Virus record (IMG/VR): IMGVR_UViG_3300008952_000034 | Location: 1 to 64,000 of that record | DNA length: 64,000 bases | Origin: a virus | Direction: 5' to 3' (one strand) | Shown: piece by piece, positions 1-64,000 of the stretch | How positions within the stretch are numbered: position 1 is the stretch's first letter | Layout: every line of letters begins with the position of its first letter | Position numbers and translations under genes: made by a program | The notes under the pieces: generated by a model | Database searches by the model: none | What the model was told of the DNA's origin: nothing | What the model saw: the letters and a program-made list of their open reading frames with translations, nothing else

Positions 1-627
1 GTGTGGTTAGAAAAATATGTTGCAAAAGATTTAACTGCACCCCAATATAATAAAATTGACGGCTTGTTAAATTATCTTAAAGTAAGAGGCATAGATCCTA
101 CATGGTATGATTTTATGTACTCACCTGATATGTATTTTAATTTTAATCAACGTTTAATTATTCCGTTCTATTGGAGGGGTGACGTTGTAGGTTACACTGG
201 TAGACTATTTGAAGATATTGAAAAAGTAAAATATGTTACAGATGTGCAACCGGGTTATGTGTTTAATATGGACACGCAAGATTGGACAAGAAAATTTGTT
301 ATTGTAACAGAAGGACCGTTTGATGCTATTACCGTTTCTGGAGTAAGCATACTAGGATCAGAGATAAATGACGTACAGCGAGAGCTGATAAACAATTTAA
401 ATAGACAGGTAATTGTAGTACCTGATAGAGATGCACCAGGAGAAAAATTGATTAATCAAGCAATAGAATTTGGATGGAGTGTTGCGTTTCCAGAATGGGA
501 TAAAACGGTTGATGATGTAGCCGAAGCTGTGTTAAAATATGGTAGACTGTTTACTATACAATCGATATTAAAATCAACAGAGTCTAGTAAACTTAAAATA
601 GACTTAAAGAGAAAGATGTATGGCTGA
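1..627 (+). CDS. gp61: DNA primase, T4 gp61-like (5' part cut by window edge)
   Basis: C-terminal part of a DnaG/gp61-type primase that makes RNA primers for lagging-strand synthesis together with the helicase encoded next. The Toprim signature is visible: a glutamate in VTEGPFDAI near residue 104 and an aspartate motif VVPDRDAPGE near residue 140. The frame is open from base 1 with a GTG there, and the usual N-terminal zinc-binding part is not seen, so the gene very probably begins upstream of the window. Its last bases overlap the helicase start by 8 nt, as expected for a coupled primase-helicase pair. Confidence 0.85.
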   Translation: MWLEKYVAKDLTAPQYNKIDGLLNYLKVRGIDPTWYDFMYSPDMYFNFNQRLIIPFYWRGDVVGYTGRLFEDIEKVKYVTDVQPGYVFNMDTQDWTRKFVIVTEGPFDAITVSGVSILGSEINDVQRELINNLNRQVIVVPDRDAPGEKLINQAIEFGWSVAFPEWDKTVDDVAEAVLKYGRLFTIQSILKSTESSKLKIDLKRKMYG

Positions 628-2047
628 TTATACTTTTGATGTACAAAAACTTTATTTAGAAATGTTCTTAGCAGATGCTGAATCATTTGCAAGAGCAAGT
701 AATATCTTTACACCAAAAAGTTTTGATAGAAAATTACAACCAATTGCAAAATTTATTAAAAATTACGTTGAAGAATACAAAGTTATGCCTGAAGTTGATC
801 AGGTTAATGCTAAACACGATATCAAATTAAAAGGTGCAAAAGATTTAGATCCATCTCACTTCTCATGGTTGTTAGATGAATTTGAAACATTTTCTAGACA
901 TAAGGCACTTGAAGGTGCAATACTCCAATCAGCTGATATGCTTGAAAAGGGCGACTATGCTCCAGTAGAGGATATGATTAAAGATGCAGTTGCAGTTGGA
1001 TTAACTCGTGATCTAGGTACAGACTACTTTGAAGATCCAAAAAGTAGACTTGAGTTCTTAAAGAGCTCAAACGGACAAGTCAGCACAGGTTGGCCAGCAA
1101 TTGACAAGAAACTCTTTGGTGGATTTAATAAAGGTGAACTAAACATTTTCGCAGGCGGATCAGGCGCAGGAAAAAGTTTGTTCTTACAAAATCTTGCAGT
1201 TAACTGGGCAATGGCTGGCTTGAACGTAGTATACATATCTTTTGAATTATCTGAATCGTTGGCGGCTATGAGGATAGATGCAATGACAACTAACATACCA
1301 ACAAGGCAAGTTATGAAACAAATGTCTGATGTTGAGATGAAAGTTAAAATGCTAAAGAAAAAAGCAGGTAACTTACAATTAAAATATATGCCAAGTGGTT
1401 ATACAATAATGGATATTAAAACTTATATAAAAGAATTAGAACTTAAAAACAAAAAGAAAATAGATTGTATACTAATTGATTACTTAGACTTAATGATGCC
1501 AAAAAGTAAAAAGGTATCTCCAAGTGATTTGTTTGTAAAGGACAAATACGTATCAGAAGAATTAAGAAATTTTGCAGTAGAGAAACAATGTTTATTAGCA
1601 ACAGCATCACAATTAAACAGAGCAAGTGTTGAAGAAATAGAATTTGATCATTCTCATATAGCAGGTGGACTATCTAAAGTACAAACAGCAGATAATGTGA
1701 TAGGTATCTTTACAAGTAGAGCTATGAGAGAGCGTGGAAGATATCAAATACAATTCATGAAAACCAGATCAAGTTCGGGTGTTGGACATAAAGTTGATTT
1801 AGAGTTTGACATTGAAACATTAAGAATACGAAATCTTGAAGAGGAGGAACAAAAATCTTCATTTGCATATAAAACATCAACAGTGTATGACACACTTAAA
1901 CAGAAGTCAAAAATAACTCCTTCCGATGCAACTCCTAACTTAGACCCTACCAAAGGTGAAGCTATGGGTGTTAAACAAAAAGCAGAAGTTGAAGGTACTA
2001 AATTAAGAAAACTACTAAACGAACTACACTCAGACGAAGAGCAGTAA
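620..2047 (+). CDS. gp41: Replicative DNA helicase, T4 gp41/DnaB family
   Basis: 475-aa hexameric 5'-3' replicative helicase. The RecA-like core has Walker A GGSGAGKSLFLQN (about residue 178), Walker B within CILIDYLDLM (about 283) and the sensor-like TASQLNRA near 328. The N-terminal 150 residues would form the helical DnaB-type collar. Length matches T4 gp41 (475 aa). It overlaps the primase by 8 nt, so the two subunits of the primosome are translationally coupled. The C-terminal 60 residues are charged and low in complexity. Confidence 0.93.
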   Translation: MADYTFDVQKLYLEMFLADAESFARASNIFTPKSFDRKLQPIAKFIKNYVEEYKVMPEVDQVNAKHDIKLKGAKDLDPSHFSWLLDEFETFSRHKALEGAILQSADMLEKGDYAPVEDMIKDAVAVGLTRDLGTDYFEDPKSRLEFLKSSNGQVSTGWPAIDKKLFGGFNKGELNIFAGGSGAGKSLFLQNLAVNWAMAGLNVVYISFELSESLAAMRIDAMTTNIPTRQVMKQMSDVEMKVKMLKKKAGNLQLKYMPSGYTIMDIKTYIKELELKNKKKIDCILIDYLDLMMPKSKKVSPSDLFVKDKYVSEELRNFAVEKQCLLATASQLNRASVEEIEFDHSHIAGGLSKVQTADNVIGIFTSRAMRERGRYQIQFMKTRSSSGVGHKVDLEFDIETLRIRNLEEEEQKSSFAYKTSTVYDTLKQKSKITPSDATPNLDPTKGEAMGVKQKAEVEGTKLRKLLNELHSDEEQ

Positions 2048-2105
2048 GCGTAAATTTTTTAAATTGTGTTTTTTAAAAATACGCGAATGCGTAAAAATGC
2101 GTAAA
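2048..2105 (+). repeat. GCGTAAA short direct repeats
   Basis: Three copies of GCGTAAA (2048, 2089, 2099), the last two as ATGCGTAAA 10 bp apart, lie directly after the helicase stop codon. No gene fits between 2048 and 2193. The spacing of one helical turn could suit a protein-binding site, but nothing more can be said. Confidence 0.35.
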
Positions 2106-2180
2106 GACAACCTGTCCTTTTTGAACTAACCACCTTTAATTGTATGTTCTGTAAAATTGTAGCACCTTATACTAACACTT

Positions 2181-2186
2181 TAAATA
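2181..2186 (+). promoter_or_regulatory. TAAATA late promoter box
   Basis: TTTAAATA-type box 7 nt before the ATG at 2194. It matches the series described for many genes of this window and predicts a transcript starting at or very near the start codon. Confidence 0.5.
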
Positions 2187-2193
2187 GTACATT

Positions 2194-2373
2194 ATGGGAA
2201 TACACTACGACTATAAAAGCACTAGGGCTGAGAAGCATTTACGTAAGAAGCAGAAAAAAGACGAAAGACGTAATCGTAAAAAACGTACGACTAAATCTTC
2301 TGAAAATGTTATTCCGTTAGATAAACTAATAACACTTGATATGTTAACAGACCCTAAAAGAAATGACATTTAA
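2194..2373 (+). CDS. Small basic hypothetical protein
   Basis: 59-aa lysine/arginine-rich protein; the central stretch (residues 14-32) is almost entirely charged, suggesting nucleic-acid binding or disorder. The start follows a TAAATA box by 7 nt and its stop overlaps the next gene by 11 nt. No family recognised. Confidence 0.6.
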   Translation: MGIHYDYKSTRAEKHLRKKQKKDERRNRKKRTTKSSENVIPLDKLITLDMLTDPKRNDI

Positions 2374-3602: not shown

Positions 3603-4184
3603 TTATATTTCGCCTAGTTGACCTTCGTTTATGTTCTCTTTAAAACGTTTTACGTGTGTTTCTCTTGCCCACTGTTCTTCTTCTTTAGTTGGATTTAAAT
3701 AATTTATTGGTTCTTTATAGAAACAAAAACTAAATTGTAATCTAGGTATTTTTGGATTTTTACCCATGTCTATTCCGTGTAAAATATCAGAACGTAATAC
3801 AATTGGTGTAATACACTCAACTCTGTCTATTTCGTTCCTATCTTCATCATACCAGGTATTATAGGTATTTTTAGTGTTTAATACTGGAAAATTTATTTTT
3901 GCTATTACCGGGGGTCTGTCTATATGAGTTTCTACTTGGTGAGTGGAATTGGTCCCCCAGTAAGTATAAGACATATCTCTAACTTTTAAATGCATACTAT
4001 CAAACCATTTTCGCAATTCTAAATTTTCGTTTGATGAATAAAAATATTGTTTAACTTGTTCGCGGGTACAGGTGTTCCAAAAGCCTTTGGGTTTATCGTG
4101 GGCGGTAATACCTAAAAAAAATCCGTACAGGCTATCAGCAATTTTTTGTTGCTTTTCGCAATCCAAAATAAAATATGACTTCAT
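3603..4184 (-). CDS. Putative 2-oxoglutarate/Fe(II) dioxygenase-like protein
   Basis: 193 aa. A double-stranded beta-helix iron site is suggested by HID (within VETHIDRPP, about residue 88), a distal histidine in LHGIDMG and an arginine in PRLQFSF ten residues later, the usual HxD...H...R order. Substrate unknown. It is transcribed divergently from the SDR gene, sharing a palindromic TATTTAAATA late promoter 6 nt from its ATG. Family assignment rests on motif order only. Confidence 0.55.
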   Translation of the reverse strand: MKSYFILDCEKQQKIADSLYGFFLGITAHDKPKGFWNTCTREQVKQYFYSSNENLELRKWFDSMHLKVRDMSYTYWGTNSTHQVETHIDRPPVIAKINFPVLNTKNTYNTWYDEDRNEIDRVECITPIVLRSDILHGIDMGKNPKIPRLQFSFCFYKEPINYLNPTKEEEQWARETHVKRFKENINEGQLGEI

Positions 4185-4189
4185 GTGCA

Positions 4190-4201
4190 GTATTTAAATA
4201 C
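4190..4201. promoter_or_regulatory. Palindromic bidirectional late promoter GTATTTAAATAC
   Basis: Perfect 12-bp palindrome containing a TAAATA box on each strand. The leftward box is 6 nt from the ATG at 4184; the rightward box is 15 nt from the ATG at 4216. One site can therefore serve both divergent genes. Confidence 0.6.
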
Positions 4202-10218: not shown

Positions 10219-11021
10219 TATTTCCAATACAATTGTTCTGTTCTTTCACTTTTAATTTTGTCTTTAAAATCTTCTATGCTTGATTTACCTTGTGCTTTTC
10301 TATTGTCTCCTTTGAGATGATCCATAAATGTTCCTAATATCGAATTAACAAAAGGATGTTTTTTACCTAATCCAGATTCTCCTGTTATATCGTTACTAGA
10401 AGTACTATACTTGTTTTCAATTTCTTTTCTTGCAATATCAAATGTAAAACAATCTACCTGATATTCTAATTCAAACATCTTGCCTGATGTATATAAATTT
10501 TCAAACACATCTGCAAATTTTTTTATGTTAGGGTGTTGCAAATTATACATAATAAACCCTGTTTCAGAAAAAGGTAATCGTTTATTATTTGGTCTTCCTA
10601 TATATGCACACAAGTTATTATCTGGTAATAACTCTTCTAGTTTTTGCATTGGTGGCGTATCAAATGTAAGTGTATCTGCATCTATAAAAATTATTTTATC
10701 TGCTTTACTGTTTCTTATCATATGACACTGTGCAAATACTTTGTAACAATGTTTTATTGCATTATATCTAAAATCTTTTTTATCATTTCTTATTCCGTTT
10801 GCTTTGGGGGTGTTATACCGATCTAAGTATGGTTTAAGTTCTGGACATACTTCAAATATATCATATTCTTTTACTCTATCTAAACGCAAATTGGGCTGAA
10901 TGTTTTCACAATACAAATGTATTTTGACTTCTTGTGGCCAATACTTTAGAAATGTTTTTACCATTCTTTCTCCATACGAATGCCATCCTGCTTCGTGAAA
11001 CGTAGTAAAAATTTCTATCAT
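10218..11021 (-). CDS. Glycosyltransferase-like protein (paralogue 1 of 3)
   Basis: 267 aa. IFIDADTLTFD near residue 115 holds the DxD metal motif, and HPFVNSILGTFMDHLKG near the C-terminus is shared almost word for word with the protein at 19666 and weakly with that at 21695. The N-terminal TFHEAGWHSYGERMVKTF is also shared. The ATG at 11021 lies 6 nt after a TAAATA box, which decides this start over the TTG two codons upstream. Confidence 0.72.
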   Translation of the reverse strand: MIEIFTTFHEAGWHSYGERMVKTFLKYWPQEVKIHLYCENIQPNLRLDRVKEYDIFEVCPELKPYLDRYNTPKANGIRNDKKDFRYNAIKHCYKVFAQCHMIRNSKADKIIFIDADTLTFDTPPMQKLEELLPDNNLCAYIGRPNNKRLPFSETGFIMYNLQHPNIKKFADVFENLYTSGKMFELEYQVDCFTFDIARKEIENKYSTSSNDITGESGLGKKHPFVNSILGTFMDHLKGDNRKAQGKSSIEDFKDKIKSERTEQLYWK

Positions 11022-11027
11022 TGTCAA

Positions 11028-11033
11028 TATTTA
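11028..11033 (-). promoter_or_regulatory. TAAATA late promoter box
   Basis: AGTAAATA on the minus strand, 6 nt from the glycosyltransferase ATG at 11021; predicts a leaderless or nearly leaderless message for the 11021-8567 operon. Confidence 0.6.
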
Positions 11034-13628: not shown

Positions 13629-13771
13629 CAATATTAACATTATTACTATGTGTTGCCTGTGCAAAAACAAATCAAACTTTTATACTCGACCCTTCAATTA
13701 CATATCCTGAAGAAAGAAATGTTGCTGTTGCCTGGCCTGTTCTTCCCGTTACTATAGAAGAAATTAAATAA
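13610..13771 (+). CDS. Putative small lipoprotein
   Basis: 53 aa: signal peptide with lipobox-like LLLCVACAK, then a proline-rich segment ending VTIEEIK. Its final codons contain the TAAATA box of the next gene. Confidence 0.5.
   Translation: MAWIKLTILTLLLCVACAKTNQTFILDPSITYPEERNVAVAWPVLPVTIEEIK
13765..13770 (+). promoter_or_regulatory. TAAATA late promoter box
   Basis: ATTAAATA lies across the end of the preceding gene and exactly 5 nt before the ATG at 13776, predicting transcription from the start codon itself. Confidence 0.6.
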
Positions 13772-13775
13772 TACT

Positions 13776-14786
13776 ATGTCGTTGATATATTCACCAATTC
13801 CGGTTTGTCTGGCATTTGAACCAATCAATTTATGTAATGCTCAATGTTTTTGTTGTCCATATACTGAATTTGCTACGGATAAAACGTTTATAAAACAAAA
13901 AATGTCAGTAGAACAAATAACACAATTAATGGATGATTGGGGTAATTTACTAAGAAAACATAATATAAAACCGTGGTCGGTTTCTGTTTTGCCGTGGCGA
14001 TATTCAGATCCTTTACTCAACCCCCATTTAGATACTGTATTACAATTAGCAGACAAGCATAAAACAAGAGTAAGTCTTACAACAAATGCTATATCGTTTG
14101 GTAAACGACAATGTGACCTTTTACAAAAATATAGTCATACATTAACAAAAATATTCATTTCAGTAATAGGATTTACTGAAAAAGAAGTATGGGAACAAAT
14201 GAAAGTTCACAGAAAAAAAGTGTTTCAAAGTTTAGAATTTGTAAGAGATAACTACCCTAATCTATCTAAGTTGATGAAAATTGCTATTAAAAATAGAAGC
14301 CAGGATCTTCCTCCAGGAGATACAGTAGAGGAATATGCAAAAAGAACATTAGGAAAAGCTACAGGAAAAGGTAATTGGATGAGTAATAGATTAGGAAAAG
14401 GAGATGCCGTTTGGGCGAAGCCTGTTAAATGGAATCCGGGTCCTAACAGTTTTGTTAATGGGTGTGGCCTAACTCCCGGAAAAATATTAAATCGTTTAGA
14501 AATCATGGTTAATGGTCGAGCGGCCCTTTGTTGTGATATGTCTTATGATCGTAATCATCCTATTGAGCAAACAAATTACGGTAATGTGTTCGATATTGGT
14601 ATTGAGGGTGTTTGGGCTAACTTAACAAAACAACACCAACTAATATACGATCAAAAGTATTCTGAAAAGAAACTAGGATTAATATGCAATAACTGTGATA
14701 GGTCTGGAATAAGCAGTATGGGTTGGAAACTTAAAGACACTATACAACGCCAACAAAAGTATAAAAGAAAGTTTTTTGATAGATAG
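13776..14786 (+). CDS. Radical SAM/SPASM protein
   Basis: 336 aa. The cluster motif CNAQCFCC stands near residue 19, and the C-terminal part carries SPASM-like cysteines (NGCGLTPG, ALCCDMS and LICNNCD). This layout, SAM domain first and SPASM last, differs from the other four radical SAM proteins here. SPASM enzymes often modify peptides. The gene follows a run of tiny peptide genes, which may or may not be substrates. Leaderless start predicted. Confidence 0.85.
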   Translation: MSLIYSPIPVCLAFEPINLCNAQCFCCPYTEFATDKTFIKQKMSVEQITQLMDDWGNLLRKHNIKPWSVSVLPWRYSDPLLNPHLDTVLQLADKHKTRVSLTTNAISFGKRQCDLLQKYSHTLTKIFISVIGFTEKEVWEQMKVHRKKVFQSLEFVRDNYPNLSKLMKIAIKNRSQDLPPGDTVEEYAKRTLGKATGKGNWMSNRLGKGDAVWAKPVKWNPGPNSFVNGCGLTPGKILNRLEIMVNGRAALCCDMSYDRNHPIEQTNYGNVFDIGIEGVWANLTKQHQLIYDQKYSEKKLGLICNNCDRSGISSMGWKLKDTIQRQQKYKRKFFDR

Positions 14787-18707: not shown

Positions 18708-19649
18708 TTATTTTGTCAATACTTGGCTTTTAACATATTCGAATGTTCTACGTAAGCCTTCTTCTAATGGAAAGTTTGGTTTCCATCCTGTAAGTTTCAT
18801 TATTTTGGTATTATCAGAATTTCTTCTCATACATCCAGCCGGACCTGCTGGAAGATATTTTTTTGTGATTTGTTTACCAGATATCTTTATTAACATATCA
18901 GCAAGTTGTGTCATTGTAATTGCCTCATCTGATCCCATATTGATTGGAATATGAACATTGTTTTCTATAAGTTTATCAAGTCCTACCATTAGGTCATCTA
19001 TATAACAGAAAGATCTAATTTGTGTTCCGTCTCCCCATATTTCTATTTCGCCTGGGTCTGATGCATTTAATATCTTAACACACATCGCGGCAACTACTTT
19101 TGAGTTTTCAAAAATATCTGAGTAAGGCCCATACATCGCATGGAATATTGGTAATGCAACTTTCATATCATAATACTTTGCATACTCTTGTACCAACTGC
19201 ATATTGTAAAGTTTTTCCATTCCGTATATATTTCCTGCAGGCTTGGCTGGCCATATGTGTTCATCTTCATTTAAGTCTGGACCATTGTGTCCTTGCACAT
19301 CTGTATTGTACATCATGGCCGAACAAGCATAAATGAAATGTGATTTATTCTTTGCCGCAAAGTCTAATGCATGAATTGATTGTATTGGATTACTTCTTCC
19401 GGTTGCCATTTGTGCTGAGCCGACAAACTTAGAGTTTGGTACGTCAGCCGACAAATGATAAACTCTATCAAAGTCGTTTTCAATTGTAATTTTATTTTCC
19501 ATATTATGGCCATGGAACTCATCAACAAAAACAGGATCACCTGTTTTAAGTTTTTTATCTAAACCAACAACGTAATGTCCTTGTTTCTTTAAATGCTGTG
19601 CTAAATTTTTTGCTATGAACCCTTGACAACCTGTAATAAGAACTTTCAT
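18708..19649 (-). CDS. NAD-dependent epimerase (GDP-mannose 3,5-epimerase-like)
   Basis: 313 aa extended SDR: TGCQGFIAKNL at the N-terminus, YGMEK (YxxxK) near residue 140, MYGPYSD and RSFCYIDDL downstream, and AGPAGCMRRNSDN near the C-terminus, which recalls GDP-mannose 3,5-epimerases. It probably makes a GDP-sugar donor for the neighbouring glycosyltransferases. The ATG is exactly 5 nt from a TAAATA box, so it can be expressed apart from the upstream operon. Confidence 0.85.
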   Translation of the reverse strand: MKVLITGCQGFIAKNLAQHLKKQGHYVVGLDKKLKTGDPVFVDEFHGHNMENKITIENDFDRVYHLSADVPNSKFVGSAQMATGRSNPIQSIHALDFAAKNKSHFIYACSAMMYNTDVQGHNGPDLNEDEHIWPAKPAGNIYGMEKLYNMQLVQEYAKYYDMKVALPIFHAMYGPYSDIFENSKVVAAMCVKILNASDPGEIEIWGDGTQIRSFCYIDDLMVGLDKLIENNVHIPINMGSDEAITMTQLADMLIKISGKQITKKYLPAGPAGCMRRNSDNTKIMKLTGWKPNFPLEEGLRRTFEYVKSQVLTK

Positions 19650-19654
19650 GCTTC

Positions 19655-19660
19655 TATTTA
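19655..19660 (-). promoter_or_regulatory. TAAATA late promoter box
   Basis: TTAAATA on the minus strand with exactly 5 nt to the ATG at 19649. It lies in the 16-nt gap after the glycosyltransferase gene. Confidence 0.6.
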
Positions 19661-23210: not shown

Positions 23211-23216
23211 ATTTGT

Positions 23217-36739: not shown

Positions 36740-36748
36740 CCGCCTAAA

Positions 36749-40786: not shown

Positions 40787-40814
40787 ATTATAACATGGAT
40801 GGTAATACCGTCAA
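40787..40814 (-). promoter_or_regulatory. Early promoter (leftward)
   Basis: Minus strand TTGACG, spacer GTATTACCATCCATGT, TATAAT. Best-conserved member of the family. Confidence 0.9.
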
Positions 40815-40819
40815 CCTCA

Positions 40820-42221: not shown

Positions 42222-42244
42222 TTCAACTCCTTCTTTCATACTTC

Positions 42245-43885: not shown

Positions 43886-43890
43886 ATCGG

Positions 43891-43896
43891 TATTTA
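43891..43896 (-). promoter_or_regulatory. TAAATA late promoter box
   Basis: GGTAAATA on the minus strand with exactly 5 nt to the ATG at 43885. Confidence 0.6.
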
Positions 43897-44051: not shown

Positions 44052-44057
44052 TAAATA
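44052..44057 (+). promoter_or_regulatory. TAAATA late promoter box
   Basis: GTTAAATA box 8 nt before the ATG at 44066. Confidence 0.5.
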
Positions 44058-44065
44058 CAAGCACA

Positions 44066-44302
44066 ATGAAGATATTAGAAGTAATAGGAACAAAAGAAAA
44101 CATAGGACCAGCACCGTCAGGTGTATGCTCTAAACCTACATCATCTTTACCAGCATCTTGGGTATCTTCTTGTAAGTCACAAGGCAAAAGAAAACGTACC
44201 GGGAACCGTGTAGCCAAGCTAGGTGGTAAGACTAAAAAGGTTGCAGGTAAACGAATCAAAGGTAAGAAATACGGTGGACCTTTGCCAGATTATTCAGAAT
44301 AA
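44066..44302 (+). CDS. Small basic protein
   Basis: 78 aa, basic (KSQGKRKRTGNRVAKLGGKT, GKRIKGKKYGGPLPDY). Composition resembles the C-terminal half of the divergent 43391 protein, but no alignment is convincing. Two cysteines in CSKPTSSLPASWVSSC. Confidence 0.55.
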   Translation: MKILEVIGTKENIGPAPSGVCSKPTSSLPASWVSSCKSQGKRKRTGNRVAKLGGKTKKVAGKRIKGKKYGGPLPDYSE

Positions 44303-44355: not shown

Positions 44356-45492
44356 ATGCAAATAGGCTTTATAGGATTAGGTAAATTGGGTATGCCATGT
44401 GCAGAAGCAGTTTCAGACAAAGGATTTAATGTGCTTGGATATGATATACTGCCTAAAACCAGTACAAAGATAGATATAAAAGATTCAATACAAGAAGTTA
44501 TAGAACAATCGGATATTGTATTTGTTGCAACTCCTACTCCACATGAAGAAGGATACGATGGAAGAAATCCTACAAGTCATCTGCCACCTAAAGACTTTAA
44601 CTATGATTCAGTAAAAGAAGTTTTAAAAGAATGCAACAAGTATGTTAAGAATGAACAAACACTTACATTAATATCAACAGTACTACCCGGAACAATAAGA
44701 AGAGAACTTGCTCCTATTGTTACAAATACAAGATTGATTTATAATCCTTATCTAATTGCTATGGGTAGTGTAGGTTGGGATATGATTAATCCTGAAATGA
44801 TTATTATAGGCACAATGAAAGGCAATATAGTTACAGCCAATAGAGCAAAACATCTTTTGCATTTCTACGGAAGGATATGCGATAACAATCCTAGAATAGA
44901 ATTTGGCACTTGGGAAGAAGCAGAAGCAATTAAAATATTCTACAACACTTTCATTAGCAACAAACTTGCATTAGTTAATATGATACAAGACGTTGCTGAA
45001 CGTTTGGGCAACATGGATGTTGATATAGTGACCAAAGCACTGGCAAAAAGCACTCAAAGAATTAACAGTCCTGCCTACATGAAAGCAGGTATGGGAGATG
45101 GTGGTGCTTGTCATCCGCGTGATAATATAGCACTTCGTTGGTTAGCAAAAGATATAGGATTAGGATATGACCTATTTCAAAGTATAATGACTGCACGTGA
45201 AAAACAAGCAGAAAATATGGCAAAAGCAATATTAAAATATGGTAAAAACATATACTTTACATCAGACTCTTACAAACCTAACACAAATTTAATAGATGGA
45301 TCATACTCTTTACTCGTACAATATTACGTTAAAAAACATGGTGGAACACTAGTAAATGGTTTTGATACTCCCGTAGAAGTTATTGTAAGGGTGCATGAAA
45401 CAAATAATATAACAGCAGATAATAAAACTGTTATATTTGATCCATGGAGAACATATCCAAAAGCAAATAATGTAGTTTATTATGGTAAATAA
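44356..45492 (+). CDS. UDP-glucose/GDP-mannose dehydrogenase family protein
   Basis: 378 aa, close to full family length. Rossmann IGFIGLGKLGMP at the N-terminus, VFVATPTP near residue 55, TLISTVLPG near 112 and the catalytic cysteine in GDGGACHPRDN near 253. The C-terminal domain has HETNN and IFDPW, as in nucleotide-sugar dehydrogenases. Second such enzyme of the window; product probably an activated sugar acid. Confidence 0.85.
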   Translation: MQIGFIGLGKLGMPCAEAVSDKGFNVLGYDILPKTSTKIDIKDSIQEVIEQSDIVFVATPTPHEEGYDGRNPTSHLPPKDFNYDSVKEVLKECNKYVKNEQTLTLISTVLPGTIRRELAPIVTNTRLIYNPYLIAMGSVGWDMINPEMIIIGTMKGNIVTANRAKHLLHFYGRICDNNPRIEFGTWEEAEAIKIFYNTFISNKLALVNMIQDVAERLGNMDVDIVTKALAKSTQRINSPAYMKAGMGDGGACHPRDNIALRWLAKDIGLGYDLFQSIMTAREKQAENMAKAILKYGKNIYFTSDSYKPNTNLIDGSYSLLVQYYVKKHGGTLVNGFDTPVEVIVRVHETNNITADNKTVIFDPWRTYPKANNVVYYGK

Positions 45493-45516
45493 GTACTATT
45501 ATAGGAGAATTGATAT

Positions 45517-45924
45517 ATGCCAAATTCAGACAACCAAGATGGGGTATTTAATAAATTAACAAAAGAGATTAAGTACCATCACAATAAACCTGATCCAGCT
45601 GATGGGGATCCTGCAAATGATTCAGTTGTAACACAATCCTTTGGTGGCAACATAGAAACAGCAAAATCACATTTTTTTCATGCTGATGCTTTAACTAATA
45701 TGGATACAAATGGTACTCAACTAGATTATGCTATCACAGCTGATGGCAATGGCATTAAATTTACAATCGCTTTTGGTACTAAGGGTGCTGGAACTGCCGA
45801 AGCTGATGATTGGGCGGCTACATGGACAACTACTAAAGATAGTTTACTAGCGGCTAACAAATATGTAAATGTGAGAGCAGATCAATATTGGAGATCGACT
45901 GACGCTACACCTCACTTATTTTAA
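45517..45924 (+). CDS. Putative structural or secreted beta-rich protein
   Basis: 135 aa, Asp/Thr/Asn/Ala-rich, little Lys at the C-terminus; DAWAATW-like and YVNVRADQYWRST segments. Leadered by TAGGAGAATTG after a TAAATA box at 45486, as are the structural proteins at 58402. Composition recalls those small virion proteins, but no alignment is evident. Confidence 0.5.
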   Translation: MPNSDNQDGVFNKLTKEIKYHHNKPDPADGDPANDSVVTQSFGGNIETAKSHFFHADALTNMDTNGTQLDYAITADGNGIKFTIAFGTKGAGTAEADDWAATWTTTKDSLLAANKYVNVRADQYWRSTDATPHLF

Positions 45925-47036: not shown

Positions 47037-48095
47037 TTTAAAATTAGGAATATAATCATCTATGTTTATATTTCTTCTAGTATTAATTGGTTCAAGATAA
47101 TTTATTGTTTTAGAATAATCATAATTTTCTTGTGTGTATAGTGTACTTGTAAGATATTCAAATCCTGAACCTTGTATTTGTTTTTCAAATTCTTTTTTTA
47201 AATCCAATGGTGCATTTAAAATACAAAGTTCTGCAGGTGTATGAACGTGTTGAATATACTGACCAACATATCTTTCCCTTTGCTCAAAGTATTGATACAA
47301 GTCATTAAACCATTCAATAAAGTCTTTAATATTAAACATTGATAGTATTTGAATTGCTGTATCTATTTTTACTGTAAGGGTAGACAGCTCTGTTAGTGTT
47401 TTAATATTTTCTGTTACCTTTTCAAAGTTACTTGGATATCTTATATAATCATTTGCTTGTCCATAAGCATCAACACTTACTGAAATGTTCACATTTTTAA
47501 AATAAGGTAGATATGAATAAAACTTTTCTTGGACATTTGTTAAATTTGTTACAACGTTTAGATGTATGTTCTTTAGAATATTGTTATCTTTTAAAAACTG
47601 AAAATAAGTTATATATTGTTGAATTATTGAAGGCTCTCCTCCTTGTAAAGTTAAGTGTTTGAGATCGTAACTTAACTCACATATTTCATCTAACTCTTTA
47701 TCTGCAATAGAAGTAACACTATTATTATCAGTAAATCGTCCTAGCTCTTTTGCCCACATTGAACTTCTTGATGGATCACACATGACACATTTCAAATTAC
47801 AAAAATTAGATAGATCTAAATCAAGATGTTGTGGTAAATTGTTGTGTTCTAGATCTTTAAATTGTCCATTGTAAAGTTGTCTAAAACTTTGTATACCTTT
47901 ATCTTCCATTTCATAACAAGGAGTACAATCTTTAATTTTAATATTATTAGACAAATTTTGTCTAGCCTTTAATAATTTAGAATGCCATACAGTTTTTGGA
48001 GAGTCGTTATATCTTTTAAAAGAAGCACAGCACAAAGCATGACCTCTTTGTGTGTGTGAAAATTGTGCCCCTATTATACCTTGTTTGCAATACAT
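47025..48095 (-). CDS. Radical SAM protein with twitch-like N-terminal segment
   Basis: 356 aa from MYCKQGIIG. N-terminal HALCCASFKRY and CTPCYEMED cysteines, then CNLKCVMC near residue 95 and LQGGEPS (GGE) near 152. The ATG at 48095 is exactly 5 nt from a TAAATA box, which rules out an in-frame start 7 codons upstream. Paired back-to-back with the radical SAM gene at 45942. Confidence 0.88.
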   Translation of the reverse strand: MYCKQGIIGAQFSHTQRGHALCCASFKRYNDSPKTVWHSKLLKARQNLSNNIKIKDCTPCYEMEDKGIQSFRQLYNGQFKDLEHNNLPQHLDLDLSNFCNLKCVMCDPSRSSMWAKELGRFTDNNSVTSIADKELDEICELSYDLKHLTLQGGEPSIIQQYITYFQFLKDNNILKNIHLNVVTNLTNVQEKFYSYLPYFKNVNISVSVDAYGQANDYIRYPSNFEKVTENIKTLTELSTLTVKIDTAIQILSMFNIKDFIEWFNDLYQYFEQRERYVGQYIQHVHTPAELCILNAPLDLKKEFEKQIQGSGFEYLTSTLYTQENYDYSKTINYLEPINTRRNINIDDYIPNFKLYY

Positions 48096-48100
48096 AACAG

Positions 48101-48106
48101 TATTTA
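48101..48106 (-). promoter_or_regulatory. TAAATA late promoter box
   Basis: GTTAAATA on the minus strand, exactly 5 nt from the ATG at 48095. Confidence 0.62.
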
Positions 48107-48649: not shown

Positions 48650-49102
48650 CTAATTGTCTTTGATGCTTGGCACGTGGAATAGATCTATACCTTCGTCTAA
48701 TAATTTCTTTGCTTCTTTCTTTGTAGCAGTGCCGTAAAACTCTTGATTTCTTTTACCTTTGTGTGCTTTACGTGCCTCTTTAGGAAACTCTTTGCCAACA
48801 TTTTCAAAGTTTTTTTTAACGTGTTTCTCTAATGACTTTAATAAAGATCTTGCTCTGCCTCCCATTACCATTTGATCGCCAGTCATGTTTAAAACATTTT
48901 CTTTACCACGTTCTCTTGGAGATTTTTGATTACTCTTTTTACCAATGTTAGGAGACATAATGTCTTTACGCACTTTGGTGCTATCACACATTGGACACAG
49001 TAATTGTCCTTGTGCTAATTGATTCTCATAATCTTCATTGCTAGGAAACCAACCCTCAAATTTTGCAGTACATTCACATATTAAAGAAAACTTTATTGAC
49101 AT
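48650..49102 (-). CDS. DUF1178-like zinc-ribbon protein
   Basis: 150 aa. Start IKFSLICECTAKFEGWFPSN and LLCPMCDSTKVRKDIMSPNIG follow the DUF1178 pattern of small proteobacterial zinc-ribbon proteins (C...C-x2-C). The C-terminal part, KEAKKLLDEGIDLFHVP, also fits. Role unknown; probably acquired from a host. Start exactly 5 nt from a TAAATA box. Confidence 0.75.
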   Translation of the reverse strand: MSIKFSLICECTAKFEGWFPSNEDYENQLAQGQLLCPMCDSTKVRKDIMSPNIGKKSNQKSPRERGKENVLNMTGDQMVMGGRARSLLKSLEKHVKKNFENVGKEFPKEARKAHKGKRNQEFYGTATKKEAKKLLDEGIDLFHVPSIKDN

Positions 49103-49107
49103 AATAT

Positions 49108-49113
49108 TATTTA
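49108..49113 (-). promoter_or_regulatory. TAAATA late promoter box
   Basis: AGTAAATA on the minus strand, exactly 5 nt from the ATG at 49102. Confidence 0.6.
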
Positions 49114-49443: not shown

Positions 49444-49867
49444 CATCTTTTTTAGTTCTAAACTTTAAGGTATTATAATCAACAACATAAATTCGTGTTG
49501 GACCAAATTCTTCCACAACTTTTTCAAATTTTTCATCATACGCATGAAAGGGTTCTCTATCTGGTAGAGTAACTTTTGTTCCCCAAACCATTGGCCACCA
49601 ATGCATAGGATTCCTTCCATACATCTCAGATACCCACATAGTTGGTAATGCAACTGCTAAGAAAGGAATTATTGTTAATGGTTCCATCCACCACGACAAC
49701 TTATCAAAAAATATATCAATTATATGAACAAGCCCCCACCAAACTCCTACAATAACAGTCAGGATAATTCCTACTATTGCTAACCCTTCATCATCGTCTA
49801 TATCAATATCGTGATGGATTCTGTATCTATGATGTTTTTTAGGTTGTTTTTTATAACTCAAGATCAT
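49412..49867 (-). CDS. Membrane protein
   Basis: 151 aa with membrane segments near residues 29-50 (LAIVGIILTVIVGVWWGLVHI) and 62-82, flanked by basic and acidic soluble parts. Start exactly 5 nt from a TAAATA box. It stands divergent from the TctA-like gene; whether it replaces TctB is unclear and unlikely. Confidence 0.6.
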   Translation of the reverse strand: MILSYKKQPKKHHRYRIHHDIDIDDDEGLAIVGIILTVIVGVWWGLVHIIDIFFDKLSWWMEPLTIIPFLAVALPTMWVSEMYGRNPMHWWPMVWGTKVTLPDREPFHAYDEKFEKVVEEFGPTRIYVVDYNTLKFRTKKDATLYCLRNLS

Positions 49868-49872
49868 AAAAC

Positions 49873-49878
49873 TATTTA
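49873..49878 (-). promoter_or_regulatory. TAAATA late promoter box
   Basis: ATTAAATA on the minus strand, exactly 5 nt from the ATG at 49867. Confidence 0.6.
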
Positions 49879-53712: not shown

Positions 53713-53718
53713 TAAATA
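53713..53718 (+). promoter_or_regulatory. TAAATA late promoter box
   Basis: CTTAAATA with exactly 5 nt to the ATG at 53724; opens the late gene cluster. Confidence 0.65.
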
Positions 53719-53723
53719 CCATT

Positions 53724-54023
53724 ATGCAGAAACAAACAAGAAGTATATTAGAAGAATTAAACAATGTATCCTTTACTAAAGACAAGGAAAATGTTGTAGA
53801 AAGTCGTGCATCTCATATTTTAGACTCGGCAATACGACTTTTAACATACATTAAAGAAAATTTTGAGCCTGAAACTGCATACAAATTAGAAAAACGATTT
53901 CATTCAGCAATAAAAAATATGGACGCATCTAAGTTTTCAAAAGGCGTTGCTCGTATTAAAGAAAACAAAGACATTAAAGAAAACGTACTTAAAATTAAAA
54001 ACGGCGACTATAAAGAGGACTAA
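53724..54023 (+). CDS. Conserved T4-like phage protein
   Basis: 99 aa helical protein (VVESRASHILDSAIRLL, AYKLEKRFHSAIKNMDASKF). I recognise the ESRAxxxxxSAI pattern from T4-like cyanophage structural clusters, where the function is unassigned. Two nt precede the next ATG. Confidence 0.7.
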   Translation: MQKQTRSILEELNNVSFTKDKENVVESRASHILDSAIRLLTYIKENFEPETAYKLEKRFHSAIKNMDASKFSKGVARIKENKDIKENVLKIKNGDYKED

Positions 54024-56295: not shown

Positions 56296-56303
56296 TATAA
56301 ATA
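56296..56303 (+). promoter_or_regulatory. TATAAATA late promoter (exact T4 consensus)
   Basis: TATAAATA with exactly 5 nt to the ATG at 56309. The only full T4 late consensus in the structural cluster; it decides the start of the 56309 gene. Confidence 0.75.
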
Positions 56304-56308
56304 TGAGT

Positions 56309-57163
56309 ATGTTAACACCCTTTTTACAGTATGTATCTGAAGCAAGAATAGTAAGACGACAAAGCGACCTACAAAGATATACATTTCAGGAAATTACCGA
56401 ACGTATATATCTTAGTTTTCTTACACTATCACTATTAAAAAACTTTAAACAAACAGCAGGATTTGTCAAATCATATGGAACGAATACTCTATCATATGGT
56501 GAATTTACTAAAGTACGAGGCACAGCGAATGACCTTCATAATATGTTGGCAATAGTAGCAGGTGATCCAAGTGTAGTTGAAAAACTTGCAAATAAAAACC
56601 AAGCTATGGCACTAAGACAAAGACAGAGCGTACCAGTATTAGCAATACGAAGATACCTTAGAAGTTTTAGCAAAGACTATGAATTTTTAACACAATTAGA
56701 ATCAGCACTAGGTATTAACAATATGGATTATAAAAATTTAAGAAGAGCAATTAGTGACTATCCTAGTTTAGATTCAAAAAGAAAACAATATACTGCAACA
56801 AGATTACTACAAGCACTAAAGGCTAAACTATCAGGTACTGACTTACAAAGACAAGCACAAATATTTGCTGACAAACAACATCTTGAATTAGATGATGTAG
56901 TAGATGCTGAACGAACAGTTCCAGGAAAAGAATTAACATCAAATGAACTAGTTGGATACAGATTACTAGTCGGACCAAGTAATGTTAGACGTGCTAAAAT
57001 TGCCGCTGATATGATACGTCAAGGTCGTGCAGTTCCTGCTCCTGTTATGTCTTCTTTCGCTCCTATAGTTAAAATGATCGATGATATAGTAAAAGGCGGT
57101 TACACATACGTTAGACTTGTACAATCTATTCATGACCGAGCAAAAACGAAGACCAAAAAATAG
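56309..57163 (+). CDS. Conserved helical structural-cluster protein
   Basis: 284 aa from MLTPFLQYVSEARIVRRQ, basic and helical (RQSDLQRYTFQEITERIYL, VPVLAIRRYLRSFSKDY). Two other in-frame ATGs lie just upstream, but the late promoter favours this one. Possibly a virion or assembly protein; no family recognised. Confidence 0.62.
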   Translation: MLTPFLQYVSEARIVRRQSDLQRYTFQEITERIYLSFLTLSLLKNFKQTAGFVKSYGTNTLSYGEFTKVRGTANDLHNMLAIVAGDPSVVEKLANKNQAMALRQRQSVPVLAIRRYLRSFSKDYEFLTQLESALGINNMDYKNLRRAISDYPSLDSKRKQYTATRLLQALKAKLSGTDLQRQAQIFADKQHLELDDVVDAERTVPGKELTSNELVGYRLLVGPSNVRRAKIAADMIRQGRAVPAPVMSSFAPIVKMIDDIVKGGYTYVRLVQSIHDRAKTKTKK

Positions 57164-57282: not shown

Positions 57283-57288
57283 TAAATA
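57283..57288 (+). promoter_or_regulatory. TAAATA late promoter box
   Basis: AGTAAATA 6 nt before the ATG at 57295; it overlaps the last base region of the Cys-rich gene. Confidence 0.6.
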
Positions 57289-57294
57289 TAGTAC

Positions 57295-57672
57295 ATGGCA
57301 ACACCAAATAACTTTAAAATAACTAATTCAATTGGAAGTACTGATAACTTTGCAGGTCCTGACGTACAATTCTTTTATATTACATTAATAACAGCAGATG
57401 GTAGTACAGTTTTAGATGTACGTACAGAATTAGGTTACAACGAAACACTTCATAATTTACAACGAACTATTTTACAAAGAGGTACTATATTATACCAAAG
57501 AGTTGAAAACGCCGCTACTGGTAGATTAGATATTTGTATGGAAAGACCTGGTTGGACAGCGGCAACACTTCAAACAGCAATAAGAGATATGGGTACAAGT
57601 GTTGGTACTAATACTAAAGACGTTTCTATGTCTACAGTAACCGAGACTGAACTAAAATTAGACAACTCATAA
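57295..57672 (+). CDS. Small virion-type protein (paralogue family)
   Basis: 125 aa beta-rich, ending ATLQTAIRDMGTSVG-type segment, which is shared with the proteins at 58402 and 58849 (IQTAIRGLD, LQTALRAVS). The three are probably repeated virion components. Leaderless start. Confidence 0.6.
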   Translation: MATPNNFKITNSIGSTDNFAGPDVQFFYITLITADGSTVLDVRTELGYNETLHNLQRTILQRGTILYQRVENAATGRLDICMERPGWTAATLQTAIRDMGTSVGTNTKDVSMSTVTETELKLDNS

Positions 57673-57681: not shown

Positions 57682-57687
57682 TAAATA
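57682..57687 (+). promoter_or_regulatory. TAAATA late promoter box
   Basis: ATTAAATA 6 nt before the ATG at 57694. Confidence 0.58.
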
Positions 57688-57693
57688 ACTTTA

Positions 57694-58305
57694 ATGTATC
57701 CTACAAATTATAGTTTTTGGGTGGCGTATAAACAACACCAATACAATCCTACCTTTCTCAAAGATGCTGGACCAGGTCAAGAACCACAAAGAGAAACTGC
57801 ACTCAAATATGTAAAAAAATGGAATACTTGTATAGATGTTGGAAGTCAATTTGGTTTTTGGACACGACCATTACTAAAAAAATTTAAAACAGTACACTGT
57901 TTTGAACCTAATCCTTTATTTCGTGAATGCTTTTTAAAAAATATACCATTAGATAATGTAACACTACATCCATATGGATTATCTAATAATGAACACACAG
58001 CATATCAAAGTAAAGATGGTCAAGTATTAAGTATGAAAGAAGGGTCTGTACAATGCAAAACACTTGATAGTTTCAAATTCAGTAATGTTGATTTTATTAA
58101 AATTGATGTTGATGGTTTTGAACATCAAGTTTTAATAGGTGCAAAACAGACAATTAAAAAGTTTAATCCAGTTATAAACATCGAAATGAAAAAAATGAAA
58201 AGATCTTTAACTGTTTTTAATTGTACTAATTTTTTAAAGAAAAGAGGCTATAGAATGGCCAAACGAGTCAAATCCGACGAGGTATGGGTTAAAAAAGTAA
58301 TATAA
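57694..58305 (+). CDS. FkbM-family methyltransferase
   Basis: 203 aa SAM-dependent methyltransferase. TCIDVGSQFGFW near residue 47 is motif I, VHCFEPNPLFRECF near 67, CKTLDSF near 124 and VDFIKIDVDGFEHQVL near 133 are typical FkbM blocks. FkbM enzymes O-methylate sugars or small molecules. Inserted among virion genes with its own late promoter. Confidence 0.88.
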   Translation: MYPTNYSFWVAYKQHQYNPTFLKDAGPGQEPQRETALKYVKKWNTCIDVGSQFGFWTRPLLKKFKTVHCFEPNPLFRECFLKNIPLDNVTLHPYGLSNNEHTAYQSKDGQVLSMKEGSVQCKTLDSFKFSNVDFIKIDVDGFEHQVLIGAKQTIKKFNPVINIEMKKMKRSLTVFNCTNFLKKRGYRMAKRVKSDEVWVKKVI

Positions 58306-59887: not shown

Positions 59888-59917
59888 TCACAATTAAATA
59901 TCCAAAAGGAGTTTACA

Positions 59918-60157
59918 ATGGAAAAATTTGTAGTAGAGATATGTGTTGGAGATGAAATTGAAATTGGACGTTTTCATCTTGCTAAACAAAAAATAACAGA
60001 GATTAATTTAGACAAATGGGGTCATCCAATAGTAACTACTACTAGTGGTAGAAAAGTTGGACTATTTGCTAAAAGATTAAAGAAATTAATACCAGAAGAA
60101 GATATAAAACGAAATATAGCATTAGAAGATTACGTAGAAGAAGACAATAGAAAATAA
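59918..60157 (+). CDS. Small structural-cluster protein
   Basis: 79 aa from MEKFVVEICVGDEIEIG, beta-rich; RKVGLFAKRLKKL near the end. AAAGGAG site 8 nt upstream fixes this start; a TAAATA box lies at 59895-59900. Overlaps the next gene by one base. Unknown. Confidence 0.58.
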   Translation: MEKFVVEICVGDEIEIGRFHLAKQKITEINLDKWGHPIVTTTSGRKVGLFAKRLKKLIPEEDIKRNIALEDYVEEDNRK

Positions 60158-62364: not shown

Positions 62365-62370
62365 TAAATA
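62365..62370 (+). promoter_or_regulatory. TAAATA late promoter box
   Basis: ACTAAATA with exactly 5 nt to the ATG at 62376. Confidence 0.65.
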
Positions 62371-62375
62371 ACAAT

Positions 62376-63242
62376 ATGCAAAGCATAGAACTAACAAAAC
62401 CAGTAACTACAGAGTCATTACTATCCGAGTTTGAAAGTAGATTTAATCAAACTATGGATTTAAGCAAATTTACTAGAGAAGAGTTAGAAGATACTGCAAA
62501 TAAAATTAGAACTAGAATTCACGACATTACACAAAATGAACATTTTGGACAAGAATTAAAAAATCATGACTATCAAAAAAATCAAAGTATGTTAGATATT
62601 ATTAATCAATCAATTAAAGAGTATGGGTCAGACACAGCAGAAAATCCAGTTTTAAACAAAGCAACAGCACCAATCAAAGACAAACTTAGAAAAGGACAAG
62701 CATTAAGTCCAGATGAAAGAGGAGCGGCGGCAAAACTTATGGCAAGTAAAGAAGTTAAAGAAGGCGTAGAAGAACAATCAGAATTAATTTTAGCGGCTAA
62801 AGATATGATGGACAAAGTTACAGGGTATCTAGAAGATTTAGCAACAATGAAAACTGAAAGTATGTTAGAACTTGCTGATAGAATTAGAGACGAAATGGGA
62901 GCAGAAAAGTCAGATGCTTTCTTACAAAAAGTTCAACCAGCTATTGAACAAGCAGAAGCAACACTAGGAACAACAAGACAAGAACTTGACAACGGTGTAA
63001 GAATATTGACCGGCGAAGAAGTTGCATCAGACCCTATGGGTTCTGATGATTCCATGAATATGGACGAACCAGACACAGACCTAGGAGGAGACGTAGACCT
63101 AGGAGGAGACGCTGAAACAGATGAGTTTGGCGCTTCTGATGCAGAAGCAGGTGGAACAGAACCTGAAGGCAGAGAACAAAGAGAATCCAGAGAAGTATTT
63201 GAAACTTCAAACAGAATCTACGGCAAACTAGCAGGGAAGTAA
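62376..63242 (+). CDS. Acidic structural-cluster protein, scaffold-like
   Basis: 288 aa, acidic, helical N-terminal two thirds and an Asp/Gly-rich tail with repeats (TDLGGDVDLGGDAETD). The N-terminal LSEFESRFNQTMDLSKFTRE recalls conserved cyanophage structural-cluster proteins. Composition suits a scaffold or prohead core protein, but this is inference. Confidence 0.58.
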   Translation: MQSIELTKPVTTESLLSEFESRFNQTMDLSKFTREELEDTANKIRTRIHDITQNEHFGQELKNHDYQKNQSMLDIINQSIKEYGSDTAENPVLNKATAPIKDKLRKGQALSPDERGAAAKLMASKEVKEGVEEQSELILAAKDMMDKVTGYLEDLATMKTESMLELADRIRDEMGAEKSDAFLQKVQPAIEQAEATLGTTRQELDNGVRILTGEEVASDPMGSDDSMNMDEPDTDLGGDVDLGGDAETDEFGASDAEAGGTEPEGREQRESREVFETSNRIYGKLAGK

Positions 63243-63246
63243 TCCC

Positions 63247-63597
63247 ATGCGATTTTTCGAATTTAAAAATAAAGATTTAGAATCAGCATTAGTTAATACC
63301 TTAATGAATATGAAAGGTGATGCTGATAAAAAAGATCAATCATCAGAAATAAGTTTTGATGCTGTTGACAATATAATGACTAACATAGGTTATCCATCAT
63401 TCAATTATGATATTTTTAAACAGATGTATGACCAAGGTGAAGCACTAAAAAACATTGTCGCAGATTTTGATGAAGAAAAGATTGTAATTAAAACAGAACA
63501 AGACGCAGAAGCAGATCCAGAAATGGACTTTGATAATCAAGGTTCTACAGATAAAGTAAAGCAGATGGCCAAGTCTGCGATGAACCGAAGAAAATAG
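63247..63597 (+). CDS. Conserved T4-like structural-cluster protein
   Basis: 116 aa. NIGYPSFNYDIFKQMYDQGEALK and EEKIVIKTEQD follow a pattern seen in small conserved T4-like cyanophage proteins. Acidic C-terminus. Four nt after the previous stop. Confidence 0.62.
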   Translation: MRFFEFKNKDLESALVNTLMNMKGDADKKDQSSEISFDAVDNIMTNIGYPSFNYDIFKQMYDQGEALKNIVADFDEEKIVIKTEQDAEADPEMDFDNQGSTDKVKQMAKSAMNRRK

Positions 63598-63615
63598 CAG
63601 ATAACTAACATTACA

Positions 63616-64000
63616 ATGAATAATAACCTTCGGCAGGTGGATCTTGTATCAACAACGAAAGGTTTGTTGAACCTTCATCAATTTTGGAACAAACCTATTG
63701 TGGTATTCAACAGTGCATCTTTCTGTGGCTTTACTAATCAGTTGTCCGCTTTTGAAGAACTGCACAAGACAGGCAAAGTAATACCTATTGCCCTGCCAAC
63801 AAATGAATTTGGTGCCCAAGAACCTGGACACTCTCTAGAAATCAATCAACACTACTGTAAGAAATACAACGTGACATATCCAATAATGGACAAGACAGAT
63901 CTAGAACATAAATTTTTTAAAACTTTTGGCATACCAGACTGGAACTTCAATAAATGGTTATTTGATTCTAAACACAATTTTGTTAAGAAGTTTAACAGTA
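63616..64000 (+). CDS. Glutathione peroxidase family protein (cut by window end)
   Basis: First 128 residues of a GPx-like thiol peroxidase. VVFNSASFCGFTNQ carries the peroxidatic Cys37, ALPTNEFGAQEPG the glutamine (Gln68), and DWNFNKWLFD the Trp-Asn pair (109-110) of the catalytic tetrad. Cys81 in HYCKKYNVTYP sits where bacterial and plant Cys-GPx enzymes have the resolving cysteine for thioredoxin. So it should reduce hydroperoxides, probably with thioredoxin. Follows structural genes by 18 nt. Rare in phages. Confidence 0.88.
   Translation, partial: MNNNLRQVDLVSTTKGLLNLHQFWNKPIVVFNSASFCGFTNQLSAFEELHKTGKVIPIALPTNEFGAQEPGHSLEINQHYCKKYNVTYPIMDKTDLEHKFFKTFGIPDWNFNKWLFDSKHNFVKKFNS

Follow-up and report, generated by a model that had tools for sequence, protein, structure and literature searches.

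The stretch analysed here (the window) comprises the first 64,000 of the 72,662 bases of IMG/VR virus record IMGVR_UViG_3300008952_000034, from a phage whose genome has 34% GC. On both strands, genes carry the hexamer TAAATA, the core of the late promoter of T4 and the cyanophages, a few nucleotides (nt) before the ATG; the number of nt between box and ATG is called the gap. We think it probable (roughly 0.84) that these boxes are T4-type late promoters whose leader has been removed at the first gene of many late units. The boxes keep their spacing among homologs in the best-sampled families, their genes lack a Shine-Dalgarno (SD) sequence and are enriched at divergent starts, and at gaps 5 and 8 an initiator signature follows the box. 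From this layout we infer the actual 5' ends, the late timing, the sigma factor and the translation route. RNA polymerase, presumably host core with a gp55-like sigma, would open the box and start about 6 bases past its last A. The start codon would then lie at +1 (gap 5), +1 or +2 (gap 6), +1 to +3 (gap 7) or +4 (gap 8), leaving a leader of 0 to 3 nt with no SD, and translation would presumably take the 70S leaderless route. The leader would have been lost within the clade at the first gene of many late units, and many downstream genes of these units, like early genes, would retain SD sites. Whereas the textbook T4-type late message has a leader with an SD, ocean phage lineages appear to have dropped the leader and made the start codon +1.

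Position and conservation of the boxes

An earlier note on this DNA had named nine genes with a box at gap 5 and five at gap 6, all of which are present as described. Its total of at least eighteen is reached only by including weak candidates, since the window holds 16 firm sites and 3 weak ones; 2194 and 44066 are both called genes. The start codon is ATG and the TAAATA core is present at every listed site. The core had also been described as preceded by T, C or G, which fails at 56309, where an A precedes it.

13765..13776, plus strand: box, gap 5, ATG 13776 of a radical-SAM-like gene; singleton; gene caller start later, at 13902
19649..19660, minus strand: box, gap 5, ATG 19649 of a nucleotide-sugar-epimerase-like gene; singleton
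43885..43896, minus strand: box, gap 5, ATG 43885; gap 5 in 7/7 distinct homologs
48095..48106, minus strand: box, gap 5, ATG 48095 of a radical-SAM gene; box in 8/37 distinct family members
49102..49113, minus strand: box, gap 5, ATG 49102; 7/10 distinct homologs
49867..49878, minus strand: box, gap 5, ATG 49867; singleton
53713..53724, plus strand: box, gap 5, ATG 53724 of virion structural protein phrog_11854; gap 5-8 in 35/36 distinct homologs
56296..56309, plus strand: TATAAATA (full T4 octamer), gap 5, ATG 56309; gap 5 in 53/53 distinct homologs
62365..62376, plus strand: box, gap 5, ATG 62376 of virion structural protein phrog_14154; gap 5-8 in 49/51 distinct homologs
4184..4196, minus strand: box, gap 6, ATG 4184; singleton; overlaps the TATTTAAATA palindrome
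11021..11033, minus strand: box, gap 6, ATG 11021; singleton
23210..23222, minus strand: box, gap 6, ATG 23210; singleton
57283..57295, plus strand: box, gap 6, ATG 57295; 8/9 distinct homologs
57682..57694, plus strand: box, gap 6, ATG 57694, methyltransferase-like; box in only 2/32 distinct homologs
2181..2194, plus strand: box, gap 7, ATG 2194; singleton; A-T at box+5/+6, no pyrimidine-purine step
44052..44066, plus strand: box, gap 8, ATG 44066, predicted 3-nt leader; 7/7 distinct homologs
28870..28884, plus strand: weak candidate, box, gap 8, ATG 28884; singleton; gene caller favoured 28917
23255 (gap 7) and 11306 (gap 9): weak candidates
45486..45517, plus strand: leadered contrast, TAAATA 25 nt before ATG 45517, with AGGAG
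59895..59918, plus strand: leadered contrast, TAAATA 17 nt before ATG 59918, with AAAGGAG

A third leadered gene, 58402, has AAGGAGG, so that the AGGAGG-type sites which the earlier note had assigned to these three leadered genes are all there. A further site, 71668 (gap 8), lies beyond the window in the rest of the record. At 56309 the gene caller picked 56303 instead, and the start at 56309 was settled by homology. The TATTTAAATA palindrome between the divergent genes 4184 (minus) and 4216 (plus) places TAAATA on both strands, at gap 6 and gap 15, and is a candidate two-way late promoter. Besides the two virion proteins of the window, box genes include tail-spike and PAAR-like genes in relatives, as well as radical-SAM, epimerase and ribonucleotide-reductase genes.

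Boxes at gap 5-8 precede 14 of the 127 called genes of the record, whereas shuffled sequence averages 1.10 and never goes above 5, and the motif scan that the earlier note had suggested thus came out in its favour. Six relatives have 5 to 13 box genes each, against shuffle means of 0.3-1.2 and maxima of 2-5; five of the six have 38-44% GC and keep the peak. When ATG triplets were counted with no gene calls, TAAATA-Nk-ATG occurred 9, 5, 3 and 4 times at k = 5, 6, 7 and 8 and 0-2 times at all other k up to 40. Neither of the control words ATAAAT and TATAAA peaked at those k, and the commoner control AATTAA, with counts of 5 (k = 5) and 7 (k = 6), stayed inside the 1-8 that it shows elsewhere. 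The clade contigs G001 to G007 gave counts of 11-19 versus 1-8 for the reversed pattern. Loci around the helicase gene had 28, 45, 12, 42 and 35 boxes at gaps 5 to 9, most other spacings remaining in single digits (exceptions 10, 24 and 16).

The null consisted of 300 dinucleotide shuffles of the 60-nt upstream regions, with starts taken from our own gene caller. For k = 5 plus 6 the observed 14 compares with a mean of 5.6 and a maximum of 11 in 100 under a second-order Markov null of the whole genome; this null is unmatched to the real TAAATA count and was not relied on. Clade counts (seven records) are quoted after dropping 79 duplicate starts, contig G001 overlapping the record itself; the odds needed no change. 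G001 (92,942 bases) contains a 100%-identical copy of the 62376 protein, and the two overlap by about 62% (746 of the record's 1211 60-mers).

The spacing is conserved in the best-sampled families. The 80 homolog loci of 62376 represent 52 distinct upstream regions, 50 of which have TAAATA 5-8 nt before the ATG, and in the 56309 family gap 5 is kept in all 53 distinct homologs, down to 53% identity. For a wider count, genes with a box at gap 4-9 in the record, the six relatives and 79 loci were grouped into 45 protein families, of which 25 had two or more members; all homologs of these 25 with an alignable start were scored, avoiding selection on the outcome. Homologous sites are related, and the conservation counts are not independent events.

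An AT-only motif in a genome of 34% GC might be expected to turn up near starts by chance, or through composition combined with misplaced start codons; the gene caller did choose other starts at 13776 and 56309, and eight listed sites are singletons among the box families. The shuffles, the peak in the relatives of 38-44% GC, the publicly annotated starts of phage HTVC008M (see below) and the 53/53 conservation at 56309 speak against this explanation, which we regard as extremely improbable. Shuffles and conservation rule it out for the conserved families; a single singleton could be due to chance.

Predicted transcription start and gene context

Published work is cited below by PMC number, from excerpts of the texts. 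The T4 late box is placed at -13 to -6 (PMC1524935); therefore gap 5 would put +1 on the A of the ATG. In the seven clade records, a pyrimidine stands at -1 in 33 of 34 gap-5 genes, versus 276/580 non-box ATG genes and 90/218 SD genes. Gap-8 genes have a pyrimidine-purine step at box+5/+6 (positions -4/-3) in 10 of 10 cases, against 160/580 controls, and a -1 pyrimidine in only four of the ten. At gap 7 the box+5/+6 step is found in 6/8 (controls 132/580) and the -1 pyrimidine in 7/8, and thus either start is possible; at gap 6 the box+5/+6 step is found in 3/7. Averaged by family, the box+5/+6 step amounts to 0.92 at gap 5 and 0.93 at gap 8. Boxes of the clade that have a leader with an SD show it in 0.73 of 26 cases, with 0.50 at the next offset; for T4 boxes the value is 0.50 of 24. 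The predicted leaders are accordingly 0 nt (gap 5), 0-1 nt (gap 6), 0-2 nt (gap 7) and 3 nt (gap 8), gaps 5 and 8 being the firmest. The earlier note's placement of +1 at about the A of the ATG agrees with the T4 box position, the conserved spacing and the step at gaps 5 and 8, but needs widening, as gaps 6 to 8 predict leaders of 0-3 nt.

The position of TAAATA resembles that of a ribosome-binding site, and an SD 4-mer is missing from the scanned region in all 61 distinct box genes of the clade. The absence of an SD between box and ATG, claimed by the earlier note, was thereby borne out, although partly forced by the position of the box. One could then view TAAATA as a non-SD translation-initiation element near the AUG rather than a promoter. 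Several features make this very unlikely. The gap varies from 5 to 8 within the homologs of a single gene, as for 62376. At gap 8 the step stays at box+5/+6 (10/10), with the -1 pyrimidine in only 4/10, and in SD-bearing homologs the box is found farther upstream. Thus, in the tail-spike family the box is at gap 6-9 in 29 of 35 homologs, and the other six, including the record's own gene 67367, all have an SD and a TAAATA at most 70 nt upstream. The box is moreover identical to the late-promoter core of T4 and the cyanophages, and box genes are about four times commoner at divergent starts: 28 of the 61 distinct clade box genes are divergent from their upstream neighbour, versus 73 of 613 others.

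The remaining 33 box genes have their upstream neighbour on the same strand, at a distance of only 15-21 nt at 62376, 19649 and 57694. This arrangement would suit boxes that are real late promoters but contribute only minor leaderless ends, most protein being made from longer read-through mRNAs. A longer mRNA would be no help to initiation in genes that have no SD; this, the 28 divergent genes and the conservation of both the spacing and the base before the ATG lead us to judge read-through unlikely as the main source of protein.

SD sites are common elsewhere in the record, notably in a presumed early block:

26840..42239, minus strand: presumed early block with clamp-loader-like, ligase and endolysin genes ("early" is inferred)

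Of the 44 minus-strand genes called in this block, 24 have an SD 4-mer and none has a box at gap 4-9; of the 82 genes in the rest of the record, 14 are box genes and 21 are SD genes. That the phage "mainly" translates leaderless late messages, as the earlier note put it, is therefore too strong: box genes are enriched at the head of units, and an SD is kept by many internal as well as early genes. TATAAT, a hexamer of the sigma-70 -10 type, peaks 5-9 nt ahead of called starts in three clade contigs (7, 5 and 4 in G004, G006 and G007, against 0-2 in each of the other 5-nt bins); thus early genes may be leaderless too in these contigs.

Comparison with leadered homologs suggests how the layout arose. 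In Atu_ph07, the annotated start of the 62376 homolog lies some 65 nt past a TAAATA and has GAGGAAA close by (by eye). The Phosso match to 62376 falls mainly in a gene overlapping the end of a 105-codon gene that has TAAATA about 40 nt before its start together with GGAAGG (by eye); this is the weaker pair. The Atu_ph07 homolog of 56309 begins inside its upstream neighbour and, for that reason, has no such promoter there. Loss of the leader in the marine clade would be the simplest history.

A number of results weigh against late promoters with leader loss. The box stands at gap 4-9 in only 287 of 494 distinct homologs over the 25 families, and is rare in some: 57694 (2/32), 71668 (11/30, a mixed family) and 48095 (8/37). 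The eight singletons belong here as well. The first two bases of the T4 box are not kept, TATAAATA occurring only once in the window. G008, from a more divergent group, shows little excess (13 versus 10 for the reversed pattern). By family, gap 6 is mixed (0.51 at box+5/+6 versus 0.42 at box+6/+7), and at gap 7 the step at -1/ATG (0.80) exceeds that at box+5/+6 (0.67). The step is seen in no more than 0.36-0.47 of the leadered boxes of S-PM2, PA5oct, Melnitz, HTVC008M and Mosig, and for Melnitz and Mosig a different offset scores at least as high as box+5/+6. The mutual exclusion of box and SD (0/61) is partly mechanical, the box filling much of the SD space. Finally, a search of nine clade contigs, all of them fragments, found no phrog_234 (gp55), and gp55 queries had no match in the clade loci around the helicase, likewise all fragments.

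Reach among other phages

Megablast of 40-60 kilobases (kb) of sequence against 50,697 phage records returned no match. The best protein match of the replicative helicase is jumbo phage PA5oct (51% identity), followed by Atu_ph07, Phosso, Vibrio 2.275.O, SCTP-2 and RaK2; the clamp-loader-like protein ranks PA5oct-type phages first and matches Atu_ph07 and many T4-like phages less closely. The window phage would therefore, as judged from these proteins, be a distant T4 relative via the jumbo phages. These six jumbo phages are its closest named relatives by helicase and partly by the clamp-loader-like protein, but they differ in layout: the PA5oct gp25-like gene and the Atu_ph07 homolog of 62376 are leadered (by eye). 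PA5oct, Atu_ph07, RaK2, Phosso and Vibrio 2.275.O have no genome-wide box excess; the count for SCTP-2 is 80 versus 65.

T4 late promoters, which use gp55, gp33 and gp45, resemble the boxes described here in the TAAATA core, in the predicted start 6 bases past the box and in standing upstream of virion genes. T4 itself differs in that its boxes peak 20-29 nt before the ATG, mostly with an SD between; moreover, the T4 octamer TATAAATA is nearly absent in the window phage. Box distances peak at 20-39 nt in S-PM2, 20-29 nt in PA5oct and 20-34 nt in Melnitz. Called genes with a box at gap 5-8 number 0/256 in T4, 0/197 in S-PM2, 2/314 in PA5oct and 2/192 in Melnitz, figures that rule out a trait general to T4-like phages.

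The SAR11 T4-like phages HTVC008M and Mosig (Kyanoviridae) have the same late-box-to-start layout, although they belong to another phage family and a smaller share of their genes shows it. In HTVC008M, of the same family as the OM43 phage Melnitz, 13 of 190 genes have a box at gap 5-8 (shuffle maximum 6); in Mosig the number is 6 of 182, within the shuffle maximum of 7. The HTVC008M genes with TAAATA at exactly gap 5, by publicly annotated starts, include those for the tail tape measure, DNA end protector, tail tube cap, a baseplate wedge, a wedge initiator and tail completion proteins; in two gap-5 genes (13944 and 49760) an SD-like 4-mer coincides with the box or precedes it. Among tail-tube-cap relatives, the box is at exactly gap 5 in 26 of 27 distinct upstream regions, and the remaining one, the most diverged, has a box at 21 and an SD. 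This count covers the 56 of 80 IMG/VR loci whose match reaches the protein start, and most of the distant loci are among the other 24. Of 49 distinct upstream regions of gp25-like genes in metagenomic contigs, the contigs being chiefly found through gp55, 33 carry a box at gap 4-7; the name gp25 rests on annotated matches. The named phages in this pool are T4 and Melnitz, without a close box, and PA5oct (GTG start), leadered by eye. We take gp48 and gp25 to be names of T4 genes.

A trait unique to the window phage is ruled out by the HTVC008M, gp25-like and tail-tube-cap data. The earlier note had called the layout unusual for a T4 relative, which is right for T4, but the layout recurs in SAR11 T4-like phages and in gp25-like genes of other jumbo-type contigs. 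Nor is a trait of all alphaproteobacterial phages supported, Cr30, phiM12, Phosso and Atu_ph07 having no excess.

Related work has been published. Bacterial genes were classed as leaderless from a -10-like box about 10-12 base pairs before the start, too near for a leader (PMC3160421); the logic is the same, but theirs is a host sigma-70 box and the one described here a phage late-type box. In Sinorhizobium meliloti, an alphaproteobacterium, 171 mapped leaderless mRNAs start at AUG (PMC3616915). Late-box variants include NATAAATA in S-PM2 and CTAAATA in Aeh1 (PMC2984593, PMC1524935), and papers on cyanophage and T4-like late promoters, in their excerpts, describe the motif without leaderless placement (PMC2984593, PMC3037559, PMC1524935). 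A 2017 paper calls phage transcripts "often leaderless", its excerpt containing no reference to T4-type promoters (PMC5312081). Among the matches listed from the open-licence literature, as represented by their excerpts, there is no report of leaderless T4-type late transcripts. According to the authors of a Pelagimyophage study, the cyanophage procedure was unable to predict late promoters in their genomes, and their phages have S21 as a core protein (PMC7029224); a leaderless layout may explain this failure in SAR11 myophages. In marine phages of the T4 superfamily the box rule would serve as a simple guide to late genes and to the right start codons; as a cultured test system for phage leaderless translation, HTVC008M or Mosig infecting Pelagibacter HTCC1062 would be available.

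Sigma factor, translation machinery and other genes

A divergent gp55 is present in all six jumbo relatives (PA5oct, Atu_ph07, Phosso, RaK2, 2.275.O and SCTP-2). The nine clade contigs searched for gp55, gp45, bS21 and IF3 are all fragments. Gp45 (phrog_223) was found neither in them nor in five of the six gp55-bearing jumbo relatives searched, and its absence from the clade therefore says little.

The ribosomal protein bS21 (PF01165) scores above the Pfam cut-off in 5 of the 9 clade contigs, and HTVC008M also has it. Clade homologs are at G001:C1:71838-71981 and in G003, G004, G005, G006 (below cut-off) and G007. IF3 (PF00707) is encoded by Atu_ph07 (W06 256-501, minus strand), Phosso, Vibrio 2.275.O and RaK2; no match came from the remaining 16 of the 20 records, which include HTVC008M, Mosig, PA5oct, SCTP-2, T4, S-PM2, Melnitz and the nine clade fragments.

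These patterns are leads. Marine T4-superfamily phages may repeatedly have moved part of their late programme to leaderless mRNAs by leader loss, as a translation takeover in which a phage-encoded bS21 would retune ribosomes from ordinary messages toward leaderless late ones and the IF3 of some leader-keeping relatives would oppose this. Consistent with such a takeover are the presence of bS21 in the clade and HTVC008M, the occurrence of IF3 in Atu_ph07, Phosso, 2.275.O and RaK2 together with the failure to find it in HTVC008M, Mosig or the clade fragments, and a report that a viral bS21 cut translation of GFP by Escherichia coli ribosomes to about 5% (PMC6375957). A review states that IF3 and S1/S2 inhibit leaderless translation, but cites conflicting results for IF3 (PMC9031893). 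Also contrary are bS21 in jumbo phages with no genome-wide excess (PA5oct, Atu_ph07, Phosso, 2.275.O and SCTP-2), which weakens bS21 as a simple cause, and the lack of IF3 in PA5oct, SCTP-2, T4, S-PM2 and Melnitz. On balance we find the takeover rather unlikely.

Near bS21 in G001, at about 74.7-81 kb, open reading frames resemble ClpS and Suf-type Fe-S assembly proteins (by eye only). Other genes of the window phage are the following.

49962-51395: TctA-family tricarboxylate transporter subunit (PF01970, 317 bits); relatives among phage records at 24-30% identity, and one genome locus, Desulfobacteraceae, at 29%
15919-16965: protein matching the N and C domains of glutamine synthetase (PF03951, PF00120)
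18081-18683: Clp-type head maturation protease (60% identity with the Atu_ph07 protein), adjoining an epimerase-like gene

Six radical-SAM-like genes (2545, 5220, 13776, 45942, 47025 and record position 65291) are accompanied by genes for UDP-glucose dehydrogenase, epimerase and aminotransferase, a set that is perhaps involved in surface-sugar remodelling.

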